A stretch of DNA of 40,136 nt, from the NCBI GenBank assembly GCA_023511725.1, contig JAIMAY010000024.1:1-40136 (forward strand), written 5' to 3'. Both the position numbers and the translations under genes were made by a program. This DNA is from Alicyclobacillus sp. Lineage in GTDB: Bacteria > Bacillota > Bacilli > Alicyclobacillales > Alicyclobacillaceae. The notes under the pieces are model-generated. The model was given only the letters and a program-made list of their open reading frames with translations. It had not been told where the DNA came from and searched no databases. Below, one piece after another: positions 8,614-15,673 of the stretch. How positions within the stretch are numbered: position 1 is the first letter of the stretch; each line of letters opens with the position of its first letter.

Positions 8614-8659
8614 GGACTTCACAGTGCCGGCGTCCGAGAGCAAACGGCAGACAGGTGAG

Positions 8660-9382
8660 ATGGCGGCTATGGTAGGCTTGTGGATTCTGGGACTCGTCAT
8701 CCTTCTTGTGCTATGCTACTGTGTTGTGCCCAACTTGTGGATTCGCGTCCTTCGGCGCGGTGTGGTGTGGCGCGGACCGGGCAGAGCCGAGATTGCCCTG
8801 ACGTTTGACGATGGCCCCGATGAGCGTTACACCGGGCGCCTGCTCGACATCCTGCGCGAGGCCGGTGTCCCCGCGACGTTCTTCGTGATCGGCGAAAAAG
8901 CATTGCGCGCTCCGCAATTGGTGCAGCGCATGCGCGAGGAAGGGCACGAGGTGGAGGTGCACGGCTTTCGACACCTTCCTGTGCCACTTTTGAGCCCCGC
9001 ACGGGCTATGGCGCAGGTGGGGCGGACACACCAACTGCTGCGGGACCAATTTGGTGTGCACACGCGCTGGTATCGCCCGCCATGGGGGCTGTGCAATGCC
9101 TGGAGCTTGTTTCCGGCAGGCCGTGCCGGGCACCGACTCATCACTTGGTCTGTCATGGTGGGGGATTGGCGTCTGACGCCTCCACAGGAGCTTCGCCGGC
9201 GTATTCTACGGCGGCTGAAACCGGGTGCCATCATTGTACTGCACGACAGCGATAAAACCTGGGGCAGCCAGCCCGGAGCGCCGGAAAACGTGCTTGCCAT
9301 GCTGCCGTCGCTCATCGAACAGGTGAGAGCGCAGGGTTACGAATTTGTACGCTTGGATCGCTGGTGGCCGAAAGGGAGTTGA
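8660..9382 (+). CDS. membrane-anchored polysaccharide deacetylase (CE4, NodB fold)
   Basis: About 240 residues with an N-terminal hydrophobic anchor (VGLWILGLVILLVLCYCVV) and a NodB domain. The five CE4 motifs are visible: TFDDGP with Asp50/Asp51, HGFRH (His101 and His105), RPPWG (Arg139), the Asp-Trp of VGDWR, and VLHDSD (His195). All catalytic and metal ligands are present, so an active extracytoplasmic deacetylase is expected; the polymer is unknown. The start is uncertain: ATG 8660 or ATG 8669, the latter better spaced from AGGTGAG. An open frame reaching back to 8414 overlaps the upstream glycosyltransferase and is not used. The next gene follows after 5 nt. Confidence 0.85.
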   Translation: MAAMVGLWILGLVILLVLCYCVVPNLWIRVLRRGVVWRGPGRAEIALTFDDGPDERYTGRLLDILREAGVPATFFVIGEKALRAPQLVQRMREEGHEVEVHGFRHLPVPLLSPARAMAQVGRTHQLLRDQFGVHTRWYRPPWGLCNAWSLFPAGRAGHRLITWSVMVGDWRLTPPQELRRRILRRLKPGAIIVLHDSDKTWGSQPGAPENVLAMLPSLIEQVRAQGYEFVRLDRWWPKGS

Positions 9383-9387
9383 CAGGC

Positions 9388-9975
9388 GTGCAGATCATGG
9401 TGGCGCTGTGGATGCTGTGGGAACGGTTGTTTCATGTTGTGATGCGGTTGCAACCGCTGGTGCCAGGCGAGTCCCATCTCTTTTTCTTCAGCGTCCGGCG
9501 CTATTTCGGCAGACCTTTCGTGGCAGGTGATGTCACGGTGAAGAGGTTTGACCGGGTGATCGAAATCCATATGAACAATCAGTTGATCATGCAGTTGATG
9601 AGAGAGACAGACAGCCTGATGGCCTTGGTCGTTCGGCTGATCCAGTTGGCCAAGCGTGATCTGCCGCTGCTGGCGCAACGACTCGCATCGCCCGAGTTCG
9701 ACGGTATCGGTGTGCTGATTGGGACGACCTTCATCCACCGCAGCGTGCAGCATTTCGGATTTCAGACGCGCGACATGTCAAGCCGGCTGTGGCGATGGGT
9801 GGTTCGGCGACATCTCCGTTTCGTGTTTCGAATGGTCAACCCTCATGCGGACGAGTTTCTCCGGTCGCACGCGGAAGTGTTCGTGCCAAAGCTGGTTTAC
9901 ATCTCGCGGGCTCGACTTCTGCAACGTTTTCGCGTGATACCATCGACTCCGACGGTGACGACTTCAGATCAGTGA
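9388..9975 (+). CDS. YkoP-like protein of unknown function
   Basis: A 195-residue basic protein, reading MQIMVALWMLWERLFHVVMR from GTG 9388, which is 9 nt after GGGAG. It has no signal peptide or clear membrane helix; the first 20 residues may form an amphipathic helix. Conserved-looking pieces are FFFSVRRYFG, a central HMNN and VVRLIQLAKRDLPLLA. I relate it tentatively to Bacillus YkoP, which as I recall is also found near or fused to polysaccharide deacetylases; this was not checked. Placement between a deacetylase and a lipid-type glycosyltransferase implies a role in a shared envelope glycan or glycolipid. Confidence 0.6.
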   Translation: MQIMVALWMLWERLFHVVMRLQPLVPGESHLFFFSVRRYFGRPFVAGDVTVKRFDRVIEIHMNNQLIMQLMRETDSLMALVVRLIQLAKRDLPLLAQRLASPEFDGIGVLIGTTFIHRSVQHFGFQTRDMSSRLWRWVVRRHLRFVFRMVNPHADEFLRSHAEVFVPKLVYISRARLLQRFRVIPSTPTVTTSDQ

Positions 9976-9985
9976 GGGTGAAGCC

Positions 9986-11083
9986 ATGCGGATTCTGATC
10001 TTTACCGGACGATTCGGGGACGGTCATCAGCAGGTTTCGACAGTCTTGCGCGAGGCGTTGGAAGCGCGCGGCGTCACCATCATGGAGCAGGACTGTCATG
10101 AGGCAACGAATCGCTGGTTGGCCGCCATCAGTCGCCGATCGTATGAGCTGGCGACACAGTTCACGCCGTGGCTGTACGGATGGAGCTATCAGGTCACGGC
10201 CCGGTTGTCCACCGAGAATCCGTTCTGGGACTGGTTGGCGGTGTCCACGCGGAAGGCCGCGTTGGAGGCGGTCCAGACGTTTCGCCCGGATGCCGTCCTG
10301 CAGGTGTTCCCTGATCACGCGCTGGCGACGCGTCGGCGGAAGGGTCCGCGTCCTTTTACGGCCGTCGTGCTCACTGACTACGCGGTCCACCCTCACTGGT
10401 TCCATCCGGCGGCGGACGCGTACTTCCTGCCCGCCGAAGAGCTCGTGACACGTGCCAGACGCCTCGCGGGACCCAGAGCACGATTGTGGGCTTCCGGCAT
10501 CCCTGTTCGATCTCAGTTTCGCGAGGTTCAACCGCGACCTGCCGAGGCGCATCGCCCCTACATCGTCGTTGCGACGGGTGGACGCGGCGTGTTCTACGGC
10601 TTGAAGGAGACCCTCGAAGTTCTGCACACGGCGTTCGGCGATCACGACATTTACGTAATGTGCGGACGCAATGAGCGGATGAGGAGCGAGATCGAGCGGT
10701 GGCGCGAAGGATGGCCGAATGTGCATGGGCTGCCCTTCGTGGAAAATGTCGCCGCCTGGTTCCAACATGCGTCGTTTGCGGTGATCAAAGCGGGAGGCCT
10801 GACGGTTACGGAGTGCCTCGTCTCAGGTTGTCCTATGCTGATTTACAAGCCGCAGCCGGGGCAGGAAGAGGAGAATGCCCGCTTCATGGAGATGGCTGGG
10901 GTTGCGCTCTGTGCATCGCGGCTGCCCGAGTTGGCCGAGCAACTCCACAAGCTGAAGGATCCAGCGGTTATCCAAAACATGCGCCGGGCATGCGAACGAT
11001 TGGCCCGTCCGCATGCCGCCGATTGGATAGCGGACCAGATGGTCGCGCTCCTACGCAAACGTCGTCAGGGGTTCGGTAGCTGA
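9986..11083 (+). CDS. GT28-family glycosyltransferase, MGDG synthase/UgtP-like (copy 2)
   Basis: A 365-residue paralogue of the transferase at 7453-8613. It opens RILIFTGRFGDGHQQVSTVL, has the matching LTDYAVHPHWFHP segment (copy 1: VTDYTAHRQWYQP), YVMCGRNERM, and the donor motif KAGGLTVTECLVSGCPM with PGQEEENARF. The start ATG follows GAGGGTGAAGCC, 10 nt after the YkoP-like stop. The two copies are clearly diverged, so they probably use different acceptors or act in sequence rather than being a recent duplication. The 3' end overlaps the convergent flavin reductase by 19 nt. Confidence 0.85.
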   Translation: MRILIFTGRFGDGHQQVSTVLREALEARGVTIMEQDCHEATNRWLAAISRRSYELATQFTPWLYGWSYQVTARLSTENPFWDWLAVSTRKAALEAVQTFRPDAVLQVFPDHALATRRRKGPRPFTAVVLTDYAVHPHWFHPAADAYFLPAEELVTRARRLAGPRARLWASGIPVRSQFREVQPRPAEAHRPYIVVATGGRGVFYGLKETLEVLHTAFGDHDIYVMCGRNERMRSEIERWREGWPNVHGLPFVENVAAWFQHASFAVIKAGGLTVTECLVSGCPMLIYKPQPGQEEENARFMEMAGVALCASRLPELAEQLHKLKDPAVIQNMRRACERLARPHAADWIADQMVALLRKRRQGFGS

Positions 11084-11559
11084 AGGGGCACGGCGCGGCG
11101 ATATTGGCTGTGGTAGTAAAGCAGTGGCTCGCGCGTCTCGTCCACATCGGCTGCTTCGACCTGGCCGATGAAGATGGTGTGGTCGCCGGCGGAAATTTGG
11201 TGTGCGGTGATGCATTCGAGCCACCCGAGCGTGTTCTCCAGCAACGGATGTCGGCTCGGGCCGGATCGCCATGGGATGGCGGCAAATTTGTCGTCCATCT
11301 TGCTTGCAAAGTGGGCAGCCAGATGTGCCTGGTCCGCGGCGAGAAAATTCACAGCGAAGCCACCCGCCCGTTGGATCACGGGAAGAGCTTGTGACCGGTT
11401 GTCAATGCAGATCAGGATGTAAGGCGGATTGAGGGACACGGAACAGAAAGCTGAAACGGTGAGACCTGCGCGCTGCGATCCGTCAAAGGCGGTCACCACC
11501 GTGACTCCGCTCGCGAATCGGCCGAGTGCGCGCCGGAAGACGTCAGCGCTGACTGGCAT
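11065..11559 (-). CDS. flavin reductase family (HpaC/DIM6-like) oxidoreductase
   Basis: A 164-residue FMN-binding split-barrel protein. Typical features are FRRALGRFASGVTVVTA near the N-terminus, GLTVSAFCSVSLNPPYILICI, FAVNFLA and the later HTIFIGQVEAAD. Relatives reduce free flavin with NAD(P)H for a partner monooxygenase; no partner is adjacent, so the physiological role is open. ATG 11559 is preferred because AAGGAGAGG lies 9 nt upstream; a TTG nine codons earlier would sit on top of that site. Confidence 0.85.
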   Translation of the reverse strand: MPVSADVFRRALGRFASGVTVVTAFDGSQRAGLTVSAFCSVSLNPPYILICIDNRSQALPVIQRAGGFAVNFLAADQAHLAAHFASKMDDKFAAIPWRSGPSRHPLLENTLGWLECITAHQISAGDHTIFIGQVEAADVDETREPLLYYHSQYRRAVPLQLPNP

Positions 11560-11710
11560 GAATGGTATCCTCTCCTTGGCGACCAAGGCCGCTCCAACGT
11601 GAACGCCGTTATTGTATCAGATCTCCGTGGTGCTGCGCAGCCCGCACGCTGCTCACCTCGACCAGGGTCCCCATCGTTCTAGCATTTCTTTCATTTATCG
11701 CCCGGGCTTG

Positions 11711-11739
11711 TTGTCAGGTTGCGAGATTCGATATATAAT
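11711..11739 (+). promoter_or_regulatory. sigma-A promoter of the c-di-AMP-riboswitch/NlpC-P60 gene
   Basis: TTGTCA (11711-11716), a 17-nt spacer, then TATAAT (11734-11739). Transcription should start near 11746, just before the riboswitch. The stretch 11560-11903 has no gene and holds this promoter and the riboswitch; 11560-11710 shows nothing else I can name. Confidence 0.85.
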
Positions 11740-11757
11740 GACTCCAGTGCGCGAAAA

Positions 11758-11887
11758 TTGTCCGAACTCCCGTGCGCAGGGAGGCGGGGGAAGCTCTTCC
11801 ATCTTGGGGCGAATCGGTTCATGGTCCTCAACGCATGACCGTAGGGATGACCCTGTCCCGAGCCCGTCAACTAACCTCGCAGGACGT
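11758..11887 (+). ncRNA. ydaO/yuaA-type c-di-AMP riboswitch
   Basis: Matches to the ydaO consensus include TTGGGGCGAATC at about 11812-11823, GCATGACCGTAGGG in the middle and the hallmark 3' block CCCGAGCCCGTCAACTAACC with CTCGCAGG. GTCC (11760-11763) pairs with GGAC (11882-11885) as the closing P1 helix. The class binds c-di-AMP and usually turns off cell-wall hydrolase and osmolyte genes, which fits the LysM-NlpC/P60 gene directly downstream. No intrinsic terminator lies between aptamer and gene; the ribosome binding site AAAGGGG (11888-11894) starts right after P1. Boundaries are approximate. Confidence 0.87.
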
Positions 11888-11903
11888 AAAGGGGTATCTG
11901 CCG

Positions 11904-12803
11904 TTGGCGCGTTTCCATACGCTATGGATCAGTGTGGCCTTGTGTGCCGCTGCCCTGCCTTCTTTGGCATGGGCGGGACAAGGCGGGGCACGGGCATCCG
12001 TTTCCACCGCTGTGGATTCCACGGCATCGACAGCATCGCTCACGGTTCCTCTCGCTGACGCCAACTCCGATTACGCTGCGGACGCCCTGTCACCGGTGCA
12101 CGACACGGTGCCGTCAGCAGCGAAGTTTTCCACGCCCGCCACGAGCACCGAAAATCACTCCGCCAAACCTGTTGCCCAGCCCCCACAGCATCCGGCATAC
12201 ATATCCGTGCAGGCAGGCCAGACGCTTTGGGAGCTTGCCCAGACATACCATGTGTCCGTCGGGCAACTGCAGCAGTGGAACGGCCTGACGGATACGAGCC
12301 GTTTGCAGATAGGCCAGCGTTTGGTCCTCAGTCGCGAGGCGGTACAGGCAGCTACGGCTCGGCAAGTGGCGCAGACGTTCCGCCGCACAACGAGCCGGGA
12401 TGGTGCTACTGGTTACGTCACGCAGCCCACGACGTCCTCGGTGGGCGCTCGCGCTGCGAGCTACGCGCTGCGCTATCTGGGTGTACCGTATGTCTTCGGC
12501 GGTTCGTCACCGCGCGGCTTCGATTGTTCCGGACTCGTGCAATATGTGTATGCGATGTGCGGGGTATCGTTGCCTCACTACAGCGGTTCGCAGTTCGGAA
12601 TGGGGGAGCGGGTCAGTCGCTCTGCCCTCGCGCCGGGAGATCTGGTGTTTTTTGACACCGACGGCGCCGGACCCAGCCACGTCGGTATCTACATTGGCGG
12701 AGGCCGGTTCGTGAGCGCCGCAGGTTCGGCGGTTCGTGTGGATTCCTTGGACAATCCCTATTGGGCGGCGCATTACATCGGGGCGCGCCGGATAGGGCGC
12801 TAG
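11904..12803 (+). CDS. secreted LysM-NlpC/P60 peptidoglycan hydrolase
   Basis: A 299-residue exported cell-wall hydrolase. From TTG 11904 the product starts ARFHTLWISVALCAAALPSLAWA, a clean signal peptide, and AAAGGGG lies 9 nt upstream. In-frame ATGs at 11835 and 11847 fall inside the riboswitch and would bury the signal, so they are rejected. A Ser/Thr/Ala-rich spacer leads to one LysM (about 99-143, VQAGQTLWELAQTYHVSVGQ) and a C-terminal NlpC/P60 domain: nucleophile Cys208 in GFDCSGLVQYVY, His259 in SHVGIYIGGG; Ser271 occupies the usual third polar position. It likely cleaves stem peptides and is controlled by c-di-AMP. Confidence 0.92.
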   Translation: MARFHTLWISVALCAAALPSLAWAGQGGARASVSTAVDSTASTASLTVPLADANSDYAADALSPVHDTVPSAAKFSTPATSTENHSAKPVAQPPQHPAYISVQAGQTLWELAQTYHVSVGQLQQWNGLTDTSRLQIGQRLVLSREAVQAATARQVAQTFRRTTSRDGATGYVTQPTTSSVGARAASYALRYLGVPYVFGGSSPRGFDCSGLVQYVYAMCGVSLPHYSGSQFGMGERVSRSALAPGDLVFFDTDGAGPSHVGIYIGGGRFVSAAGSAVRVDSLDNPYWAAHYIGARRIGR

Positions 12804-12822
12804 GGTTGAGGAACCGTCTGGA

Positions 12823-12870
12823 GAGGACAGGACGCCGTACGATGGGCGTTGCTGTCCTCGATTTTTTTTT
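12823..12870 (+). terminator. intrinsic terminator after the NlpC/P60 gene
   Basis: GAGGACAG (12823-12830) pairs with CTGTCCTC (12852-12859), extended by ACGCC/GGCGT, followed by GA and nine T residues. Confidence 0.93.
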
Positions 12871-12943
12871 GGCGCCGGCCACACTGCCAGCTTGCGAACG
12901 TGTGGGACGCCATGCTACACAGGTGGCAAAAGGAGGCGCATCT

Positions 12944-13918
12944 ATGATCAATCGCGTGTGTGACTGCCTGGGTTGCAAATACCCGGTGCTTGAAGGCGGG
13001 CTGGCATACGTGGGAAACGGTCGTCTGGCCGCCGCCGTGTCCAACGGTGGGGGGTTCGGGCAAGTGGGGTCCGCCGGGCGAACACCCGACGGGTTGGCGA
13101 GGGAATTGGAGACAGCGTTTGCGCTGACGGATCAACCGCTCGGGGTGAACGTGCCCATCAGCGAGCACCGTGATCCGGAACCGGTGTTTCGCGTGATCGA
13201 ACGGTATGCGGCACACCTCAAGGCGGTCAGCCTGTCCGCCGGGAACCCGCGACCTTGGATTGGACCTTTGAAACAGTGGGGACTGCGCGTGATCACGCTG
13301 GCATCCACGCCGGCGCAGGCCAAGAAGGCGGAACAAGCGGGGGCGGACCTGGTGGTGTGCGAGGGTTATGAAGCCGGCGGGCACGATGGGCCCGCGGAAC
13401 TGACAACGCTGATCTTGGTTCCGCTGACGGTGCAGGCAGTGTCCATCCCCGTGATCGCGGCGGGCGGTATCTCCGACGGGCTGGCGGCTGCCGCGGCCTT
13501 CGCCCTTGGGGCAGAGGGTATCCAGATGGGCACGCGCTTCGTGGCCACCGTCGAGTGCGAGGCACACGAGGCGTACAAGGCGGCGTTGTTGCAGGCGTCT
13601 TCGGAGGATACGGTCGTCATGGAGCGCTCCCTCGGGCACGTGACTCGGGTACTCCGGTCGCCGTTCGTGGATCGGGTGTTGGCACAGGAGCGGGCCACAC
13701 CGGGCGATCTCGAAGCTCTGCTGCCCCTCATCAGCGGACGCAACAATGCTCGGGCAGCGTTGGAAGGCCAGATGGACGACGGCTACGTCAACTGCGGGAT
13801 GGGCGTGGGCTCGATTCACGAGATCCTGCCAGCGGCCGAGGTGGTACAGCGCGTGATGGCAGAGGCGTTGCGACAGCTTCAGGAGAGTTCAGCCCGCGTC
13901 GCGGCGTGGATGTCATGA
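12944..13918 (+). CDS. nitronate monooxygenase / FabK-like FMN-dependent TIM-barrel enzyme
   Basis: A 324-residue NPD-family flavoprotein. The N-terminus LGCKYPVLEGGLAYVGNGRLAAAVSNGGGFGQVG is typical of the 2-nitropropane dioxygenase/FabK group, as are EGYEAGGHDG (the catalytic-histidine region) and the phosphate-binding PVIAAGGISDG...ALGAEGIQMGTRF. It could oxidise nitronates or reduce enoyl-ACP; sequence alone does not separate these. ATG 12944 follows AAAGGAGG at good spacing; the frame open from 12761 is spurious because it crosses the terminator. No fatty-acid genes are nearby, which slightly favours the nitronate role. Confidence 0.85.
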   Translation: MINRVCDCLGCKYPVLEGGLAYVGNGRLAAAVSNGGGFGQVGSAGRTPDGLARELETAFALTDQPLGVNVPISEHRDPEPVFRVIERYAAHLKAVSLSAGNPRPWIGPLKQWGLRVITLASTPAQAKKAEQAGADLVVCEGYEAGGHDGPAELTTLILVPLTVQAVSIPVIAAGGISDGLAAAAAFALGAEGIQMGTRFVATVECEAHEAYKAALLQASSEDTVVMERSLGHVTRVLRSPFVDRVLAQERATPGDLEALLPLISGRNNARAALEGQMDDGYVNCGMGVGSIHEILPAAEVVQRVMAEALRQLQESSARVAAWMS

Positions 13919-14913: not shown

Positions 14914-15000
14914 TGGTGCGGTCGAGAGGACTTGAACCTCCACGAGCTTGCGCTCACAAGAACCTGAATCTTGCGCGTCTGCCAATTCCGCCACGACCGC
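14914..15000 (-). tRNA. tRNA-Leu(CAG), copy 1
   Basis: Read on the minus strand the gene starts GCGGTCGTGGCGGAATTGGC and ends CGACCGCACCA, with an encoded CCA (14914-14916). The anticodon arm CAAGA-TTCAGGT-TCTTG shows CAG. A long variable arm of the leucine class is present (GAGCGCAAGCTC). It has its own promoter and terminator. Confidence 0.95.
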
Positions 15001-15586: not shown

Positions 15587-15673
15587 TGGTGCGGTCGAGA
15601 GGACTTGAACCTCCACGAGCTTGCGCCCACAAGAACCTGAATCTTGCGCGTCTGCCAATTCCGCCACGACCGC
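15587..15673 (-). tRNA. tRNA-Leu(CAG), copy 2
   Basis: Identical to the copy at 14914-15000 except for one base in the variable arm (GCGCCCAC against GCGCTCAC on the plus strand). Anticodon CAG; CCA is encoded at 15587-15589. Confidence 0.95.

Follow-up and report, generated by a model that had tools for sequence, protein, structure and literature searches.

A predicted c-di-AMP riboswitch whose proposed pseudoknot strand overlaps the Shine-Dalgarno sequence of an NlpC/P60 hydrolase gene in Alicyclobacillus sp.

The leader of a predicted cell wall hydrolase gene in Alicyclobacillus sp. is likely a translational c-di-AMP OFF riboswitch, in which the Shine-Dalgarno (SD) sequence of the gene would be locked into the pseudoknot of the aptamer. 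We infer ligand binding and switching from a comparison with orthologous leaders. The leader lies in a 40,136-nucleotide stretch of DNA that was analyzed as a whole (from here on, the window).

The leader and the hydrolase gene in the window

The relevant features of the window are as follows.
11711..11739, + strand: promoter-like site of the sigma-70 type, TTGTCA-17-TATAAT, which matches the consensus at 11 of 12 bases
11750..11900, + strand: c-di-AMP (ydaO) aptamer, given as the extent of the RF00379 covariance-model match, with the SD inside the match
11760..11763, + strand: P1 5' strand GUCC (RF00379 alignment; P1 covariation in 17 leaders)
11844..11859, + strand: hairpin GGGA-UGACCCUG-UCCC, the loop of which is the source of the pseudoknot 5' strand (RF00379 alignment)
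11850..11854, + strand: ACCCU, hairpin-loop (5') strand of the proposed pseudoknot (loop-tail pairing analysis)
11882..11885, + strand: P1 3' strand GGAC (RF00379 alignment; P1 covariation in 17 leaders)
11888..11894, + strand: SD AAAGGGG (sequence; the same seven letters at the equivalent position in 14 of 17 leaders)
11891..11895, + strand: GGGGU, tail (3') strand of the proposed pseudoknot, which overlaps the SD (pairs with 11850-11854)
11904..12803, + strand: gene for a LysM-NlpC/P60 peptidoglycan hydrolase of 299 aa, putatively secreted, TTG start (translation, Pfam)
11904..11975, + strand: signal-peptide-like N-terminus MARFHTLWISVALCAAALPSLAWA (judged by eye from the translation)
12204..12329, + strand: LysM domain, residues 101-142 (PF01476, E 1.4e-12)
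12480..12791, + strand: NlpC/P60 domain, residues 193-296 (PF00877, E 3.9e-33)
12823..12870, + strand: intrinsic terminator 3' of the gene, GAGGACAG...CTGTCCTC and then a T-run (sequence; the terminator scan gave the inner part, 12844-12857)

The original prediction placed a promoter, a ydaO-class aptamer and an NlpC/P60 gene end to end and proposed an RF00379 search as a check. RF00379 matched the window over the full model (1-134), scoring 75.5 bits where the gathering cut-off is 38 (E 6.4e-16) and starting 11 nt downstream of the −10 box, and the arrangement is borne out by this match, the 11/12 promoter and the TTG frame. Based on the match, the RNA is a member of the RF00379 c-di-AMP riboswitches and would be expected to bind c-di-AMP. 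The SD begins at 11888 as predicted, while P1 was found to end at 11885 rather than at about 11887. The linker between P1 and the SD is GU, the SD is separated from TTG 11904 by 9 nt, and the gap from P1 to the start codon is 18 nt. A simple terminator scan of 11300-13200 returned three sites, at 12630 (+), 11353-11368 (−) and 12844 (+), and none on the + strand between the promoter and TTG 11904, which agrees with the predicted lack of a terminator hairpin with T-run before the start codon. With the SD only 2 nt past P1 and no intervening terminator, the window departs from the terminator-type ydaO design of Bacillus. An aptamer that adjoins the SD without a terminator indicates access-based translational control, and this part of the original prediction gains support from the orthologs, which add an overlap of the SD with a conserved pseudoknot strand.

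Alternatively, c-di-AMP could switch off transcription by halting RNA polymerase inside the aptamer or immediately past it, with no canonical terminator involved. In the available text on Streptomyces rpfA, ligand binding causes premature termination in vitro (PMC10117811), and a study of Corynebacterium glutamicum nlpC, which cites the rpfA work, reports in the text available that the presence of the riboswitch lowered the transcript at any c-di-AMP level (PMC9960051). We nevertheless consider transcriptional control of this kind unlikely in the window: there is no terminator-like site in 11740-11904, the gap from P1 to the start codon is only 18 nt, and the conserved P1-adjacent feature in 17 leaders is the SD and not a hairpin with a T-run.

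The score of the window protein against PF00877 (114 bits; cut-off, 23) predicts an NlpC/P60 peptidoglycan hydrolase, the secretion of which we read by eye. The original prediction held that the coding frame is open through the aptamer, and this is correct from the in-frame stops at 11736/11739 onward; the open frame is special to 2 of the 17 leaders (the window and L064). The further argument that annotation would place the start at an internal ATG, losing the signal peptide, fails because the next in-frame ATG is only at 12555, inside the NlpC domain. Misleading alternative starts lie upstream, within the aptamer (GTG 11772, ATG 11835 and ATG 11847), and would lengthen the protein.

Further upstream (8657-11083, +), genes for a polysaccharide deacetylase and an MGDG-synthase-like glycosyltransferase form an envelope neighborhood. 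Two tRNA matches with identical scores, at 14917-15000 and 15590-15673 (−) and ~600 bases apart, are perhaps a duplicated tRNA gene.

Loop-tail pairing and the SD in orthologous leaders

Homologues of the protein were sought in 61 genomes, and the 30 best loci, one per genome and including the window, were scanned. RF00379 lay directly upstream of the NlpC homologue in at least 17 of these 30 loci (window included); this number is a lower bound because the flanks extended at most 1,500 nt. In all 17 leaders, the SD falls within the first 12 nt past P1, and the start codon is located 17-21 nt past the last base of this helix. The SD reads AAAGGGG in 14 leaders and CAAGGGG, CAGGGAG and CAAGGAG in one each. 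The start codons, as assigned from the SD position, are GTG (11), ATG (4) and TTG (2), i.e., non-ATG in 13 of 17, and by this comparison the non-ATG start of the window gene is not a curiosity. In 15 of the 17 leaders (window included), the roughly 60 nt that precede the aptamer contain a promoter-like pair (≥9/12), compared to a mean of 1.5 and a maximum of 4 leaders in 300 mononucleotide shuffles. The outer pair of P1 is AU in five leaders, GC in four, UA in four, CG in three and other in one, and is thus paired in 16 of 17 by four Watson-Crick types. Overall, 98.5% of P1 cells are paired, with a covariation score of 0.290 (0.044 shuffled; 0/500 as high). The P1 closing helix is clearly kept by compensatory change across the 17 leaders.

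At its 3' side, the RF00379 consensus has a purine-rich tail, for which the last hairpin loop is the pairing partner. For the crystallized ydaO RNA, which has the loop CUCCUUCG and the tail CGAAGGAG, the pseudoknot is called stable in the available text (PMC5393176); that CUCCUUCG and CGAAGGAG pair with each other is our reading of the sequence. For the pseudoknot we used partner swapping; in some rows of the MAFFT alignment A1, the SD is misregistered. Across the 17 leaders, the score of the leaders' own loop-tail pairs was 14.59 as opposed to 12.37 for swapped partners (0/5000 shuffles as high), and every one of the 17 showed an overlap of 2 nt or more between the SD and the tail strand of the pseudoknot. 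The typical register is AGCC/GGCU, in which GG represents the last two SD bases, and this register is seen at one offset in 9 of 17 leaders. In L056 and L059, the SD has GGAG in place of GGGG, and the loop has the matching change from AGCC to AGCU. For two of the 17 leaders (L037 and L065), the top-scoring match took hairpin-stem bases and is spurious. Based on this comparison, the tail strand of the aptamer overlaps the SD in the orthologous leaders.

The pairing in the window itself, ACCCU 11850-11854 with GGGGU 11891-11895, consists of four Watson-Crick pairs and one G-U, and is equalled by 13-17% of random loops. Its register is one base off that of most orthologs, and the offset table for the 17 leaders had no four-pair match for the window at any offset tried. 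The window pseudoknot is weak alone, and the case therefore rests on the orthologs: the comparison argues for a loop-tail pseudoknot in the group, and the window sequence taken by itself hints at one.

The two larger samples behaved similarly. No swap scored as high as the own pairs among 31 deduplicated direct-type loci of relatives (0/1000), in all of which (31/31) the overlap was at least 2 nt, or among the 44 direct loci in the matches listed for a wider sample (0/1000; overlap of at least 2 nt in 42/44). We rejected the overlap count as proof by itself: it is not discriminating because weak-SD loci score as high, 40 of 45 having an overlap of 2 nt or more.

These data bear on the idea that closure of P1 alone occludes the ribosome, with a compact aptamer 2 nt upstream of the SD and a pseudoknot that has no regulatory role. 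The distance of a few nucleotides between P1 and the SD in 17/17 leaders and the weak window pseudoknot speak for it. We regard it as improbable, because loop and tail co-vary (0/5000 swaps) and the change from GGGG to GGAG in the SD is paired with a change in the loop in L056 and L059.

An ON switch is very improbable. In such a switch, the anti-SD-like ACCUC at 11874-11878 would hold the SD in the ligand-free state, and c-di-AMP would draw ACCUC into the aptamer and thereby free the SD. By reading, ACCUC is complementary to GGGGU, and in the RF00379 alignment ligand binding would engage it in a long-range helix. On the other side, the characterized c-di-AMP riboswitches in the available texts are OFF switches (PMC9960051, PMC6488665), the class conserves ACCUCG for reasons that concern the aptamer, and the ACCUC-SD hairpin is missing from the minimum-energy fold.

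In the favored OFF mechanism with the SD in the pseudoknot, c-di-AMP would fill the aptamer and stabilize P1 and the pseudoknot. With the SD masked in the pseudoknot and the folded aptamer ending 2 nt before it, no 30S start would occur at TTG 11904. Upon a drop in c-di-AMP, the tail would be released and the LysM-NlpC/P60 hydrolase made and secreted. A separate expression platform would not be needed. Folding restricted to nested pairs does not reveal such a switch: the leader does not exceed shuffles in stability (z, 0.13), and the predicted openness of the SD in the full leader varies from 0.07 to 0.81 over the orthologs (window, 0.71) without a common pattern.

Direct genes and leader ORFs at other RF00379 loci

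Among relatives, we found 153 RF00379 loci with the core, of which 152 were parsed; L006, which had no loop, was dropped. Using cut-offs set while viewing the data (SD energy of −9, ORF length of 75 or 100 codons, and the stop range of −13 to +17 used below), we classed these 152 loci as A (48; gene-length ORF from the tail SD), B (48; strong SD with a short ORF only) and C (56 others). Own loop-tail pairs beat swapped pairs in each of the three classes (0/1000 shuffles as high). Removal of 13 of the 48 class A loci that were doubtful by eye left 35, and deduplication left 31. The core CAACTAAC instead of CAGCTAAC (11868-11875 in the window) was present in 24/48 class A, 1/48 class B and 0/56 class C loci, and 16 of the 17 NlpC leaders have an A at that core position. 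This distribution suggests that one base of the aptamer tracks the kind of expression platform.

The 35 class A proteins include matches to the Pfam families LysM (9), NLPC_P60 (7), PG_binding_1 (5) and CHAP (2). The scan for class B covered 27 of 31 downstream proteins, with 4 left out. These 27 proteins included three MFS transporters and one each of permease, K_trans and Usp, and the ten Pfam families listed for them include no cell wall hydrolase family. In the genome of the window, which comprises 2.66 Mb on 76 contigs, RF00379 matched at six loci, and none of these (0/6) is a strong-SD class B locus. The genome also encodes two diadenylate cyclase domains (PF02457). Two further loci in this genome have direct-type c-di-AMP leaders: L003 (contig 63), with a TTG start and a gene that matches NlpC, and L005 (contig 23), with an NlpC-like gene that scores under the NCBIfam cut-offs.

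A pattern scan across named genomes gave at least 44 loci of the direct kind among at least 104 deduplicated loci listed; the direct loci among the matches listed include relatives of Selenomonadaceae, Paenibacillus and Arthrobacter. These 44 start with TTG (27), ATG (12) or GTG (5). With the same picker for both, TTG was used by 26/40 direct genes (L184-L298, among the matches listed) and by 97/466 background genes, and the independent TTG events are fewer than this count because several direct genes are mutual orthologs. The weak start of direct genes may make their initiation SD-dependent.

Among the relatives, short leader ORFs lie within about 100 nt past the aptamer at L007, L010-L018, L025-L031, L067, L085, L117, L308 and others. 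Such a leader ORF has the c-di-AMP pseudoknot strand as its SD, and an intrinsic terminator follows, with the stop of the ORF at its 5' arm. A strong tail SD (−9 kcal/mol or lower) is present in 51 of the 104 non-A loci, or in 41 after deduplication. An ATG is located 3-13 nt past the SD in 30 of these 41, with a peak at 7-8 nt, whereas 1,000 dinucleotide shuffles gave a mean of 8.2 and a maximum of 15; at weak-SD loci, an ATG has this spacing in 10 of 44. For the 18 leader ORFs with a nearby predicted terminator, two of which comprise one or two codons only, the stop lies −13 to +17 nt from the start of the 5' arm in 18/18, compared to 2/18 and 8/18 for the other two frames, in a range picked after viewing the data. 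The stop overlaps the terminator arm in 9/18 in the leader-ORF frame and in 0/18 and 4/18 in the other frames. The peptides MPITTSFLLALP-stop (L012), MSYTFTLHFALP-stop (L117), MTTSAKLSPGPP-stop (L017) and MPNDTDLIESPP-stop (L067) differ, but are of equal length and have an equal CCG TGA or CCG TAG end within the hairpin. These patterns suggest that terminator-type c-di-AMP riboswitches of the same order often give the pseudoknot SD to a short leader ORF.

Four fresh genomes contributed 21 loci, 13 with a strong SD. The ATG was well placed in eight of these by script. A ninth, L309, had been put in the direct class by the script owing to a TTG frame and was recognized by eye; two of the nine (L301 and L302) nearly duplicate a locus already known. 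L308 encodes MLTHVYFTSSPP-stop, the stop being 6 nt into the terminator arm, and no terminator was predicted for seven other strong-SD uORFs in these four genomes.

Two broader readings of the leader ORFs failed. A conserved peptide is unsupported overall, with 66 synonymous and 77 non-synonymous single changes and with codon positions 1, 2 and 3 changed 169, 109 and 189 times; the cluster of L146, L148 and L155 (29 synonymous vs 15 non-synonymous) is the sole one that looks coding. A trait of the whole class was rejected, with the ATG placed in 13 of the 60 non-direct loci listed vs 10.6 in shuffles. Leader ORFs of this kind were also not seen at the six loci of the window's own genome. In addition, we observed longer leader ORFs of 28-48 codons with a common ...SADPP... 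at L110, L116, L121, L122, L146, L148 and L155, where they precede related transporter-like genes. At L016/L070, L301/L307 and L302/L305, two c-di-AMP aptamers occur in tandem with a spacing of about 350-500 nt, and a conserved ORF of 61-62 codons (MQ.QEWIDLGRVSELVGSELLYDADA...) begins from the pseudoknot SD of the first aptamer of such pairs.

The relatives seem to use the SD-hiding design in a way not reported before, with tiny leader genes. In their case, c-di-AMP would leave the leader ORF untranslated and the terminator would form; in its absence, a translating ribosome would occupy the terminator arm and transcription would continue. A second-messenger riboswitch would thus act on transcription by ribosome-coupled attenuation and not by a classical antiterminator. 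Such attenuation is a real possibility. The conservation of the leader-ORF ATG may instead reflect a small hairpin that often has the ATG in its loop. We put forward tentatively, as somewhat short of an even chance, that the aptamer of the order is translational at its root, with the pseudoknot strand as an SD that serves either the gene (the branch of the window) or a leader ORF, and with ribosome-coupled attenuation in the latter. In a literature search with thin coverage of subscription journals, we found no report of a c-di-AMP riboswitch with a leader peptide or small ORF and a terminator.

Relation to known riboswitches

The following comparisons draw on the available text of each source. 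The mechanism proposed for the window is already known in outline because translational control of nlpC (PMC9960051) and docking at the ribosome binding site (RBS) (PMC10907184) have been described. For C. glutamicum nlpC (cg2402), repression of translation by c-di-AMP was measured with reporters, and the discussion of that study proposes a pseudoknot between an exposed CTCC and the GGAG of the RBS (PMC9960051). The two systems are alike in aptamer class, kind of gene and lack of a canonical terminator. They differ in that translational repression is measured in C. glutamicum, whereas in the window translational control is proposed from sequence comparison. C. glutamicum belongs to a different phylum, and the window side adds the covariation of the SD pseudoknot in 17 leaders and the wider sets. 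With Bacillus ydaO and kdpFABC (PMC6488665), the window has in common the aptamer class and, as proposed here, the OFF logic; in Bacillus, however, an intrinsic terminator lies far upstream of the gene, whereas the SD in the window is 2 nt past P1. A 2024 review assigns preQ1-III, cobalamin, ydaO and yjdF to an interdomain-docking group 2, in which the ligand favors a loop-tail contact that occludes the RBS (PMC10907184). This group names ydaO only as a class, and section 5 of the review, as available, includes no case from Alicyclobacillaceae and no use of a leader peptide. The leader ORFs of the relatives resemble the Mycobacterium tuberculosis M-box (PMC12810186) in that a riboswitch governs small-ORF translation tied to premature termination; the M-box has a different ligand and Rho-dependent termination, whereas the relatives have intrinsic terminators.

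Relative to the available texts of PMC9960051 and PMC10907184, our analysis would add a new lineage, evidence from covariation and the gene's own SD as the predicted pseudoknot strand. The covariation in Alicyclobacillaceae (Bacillota) supports a mechanism that was measured once, in an actinobacterium, and in which the SD as a pseudoknot strand was so far only a structural proposal. If the reading of the leader ORFs is true, translation would be required by a whole set of "terminator" riboswitches for c-di-AMP, and ribosome-free in vitro transcription assays would miss how they work. The compact riboswitch is easy to test and reusable as a reporter part. In the window, c-di-AMP would be tied to the output of a wall hydrolase by one short RNA without a separate expression platform.
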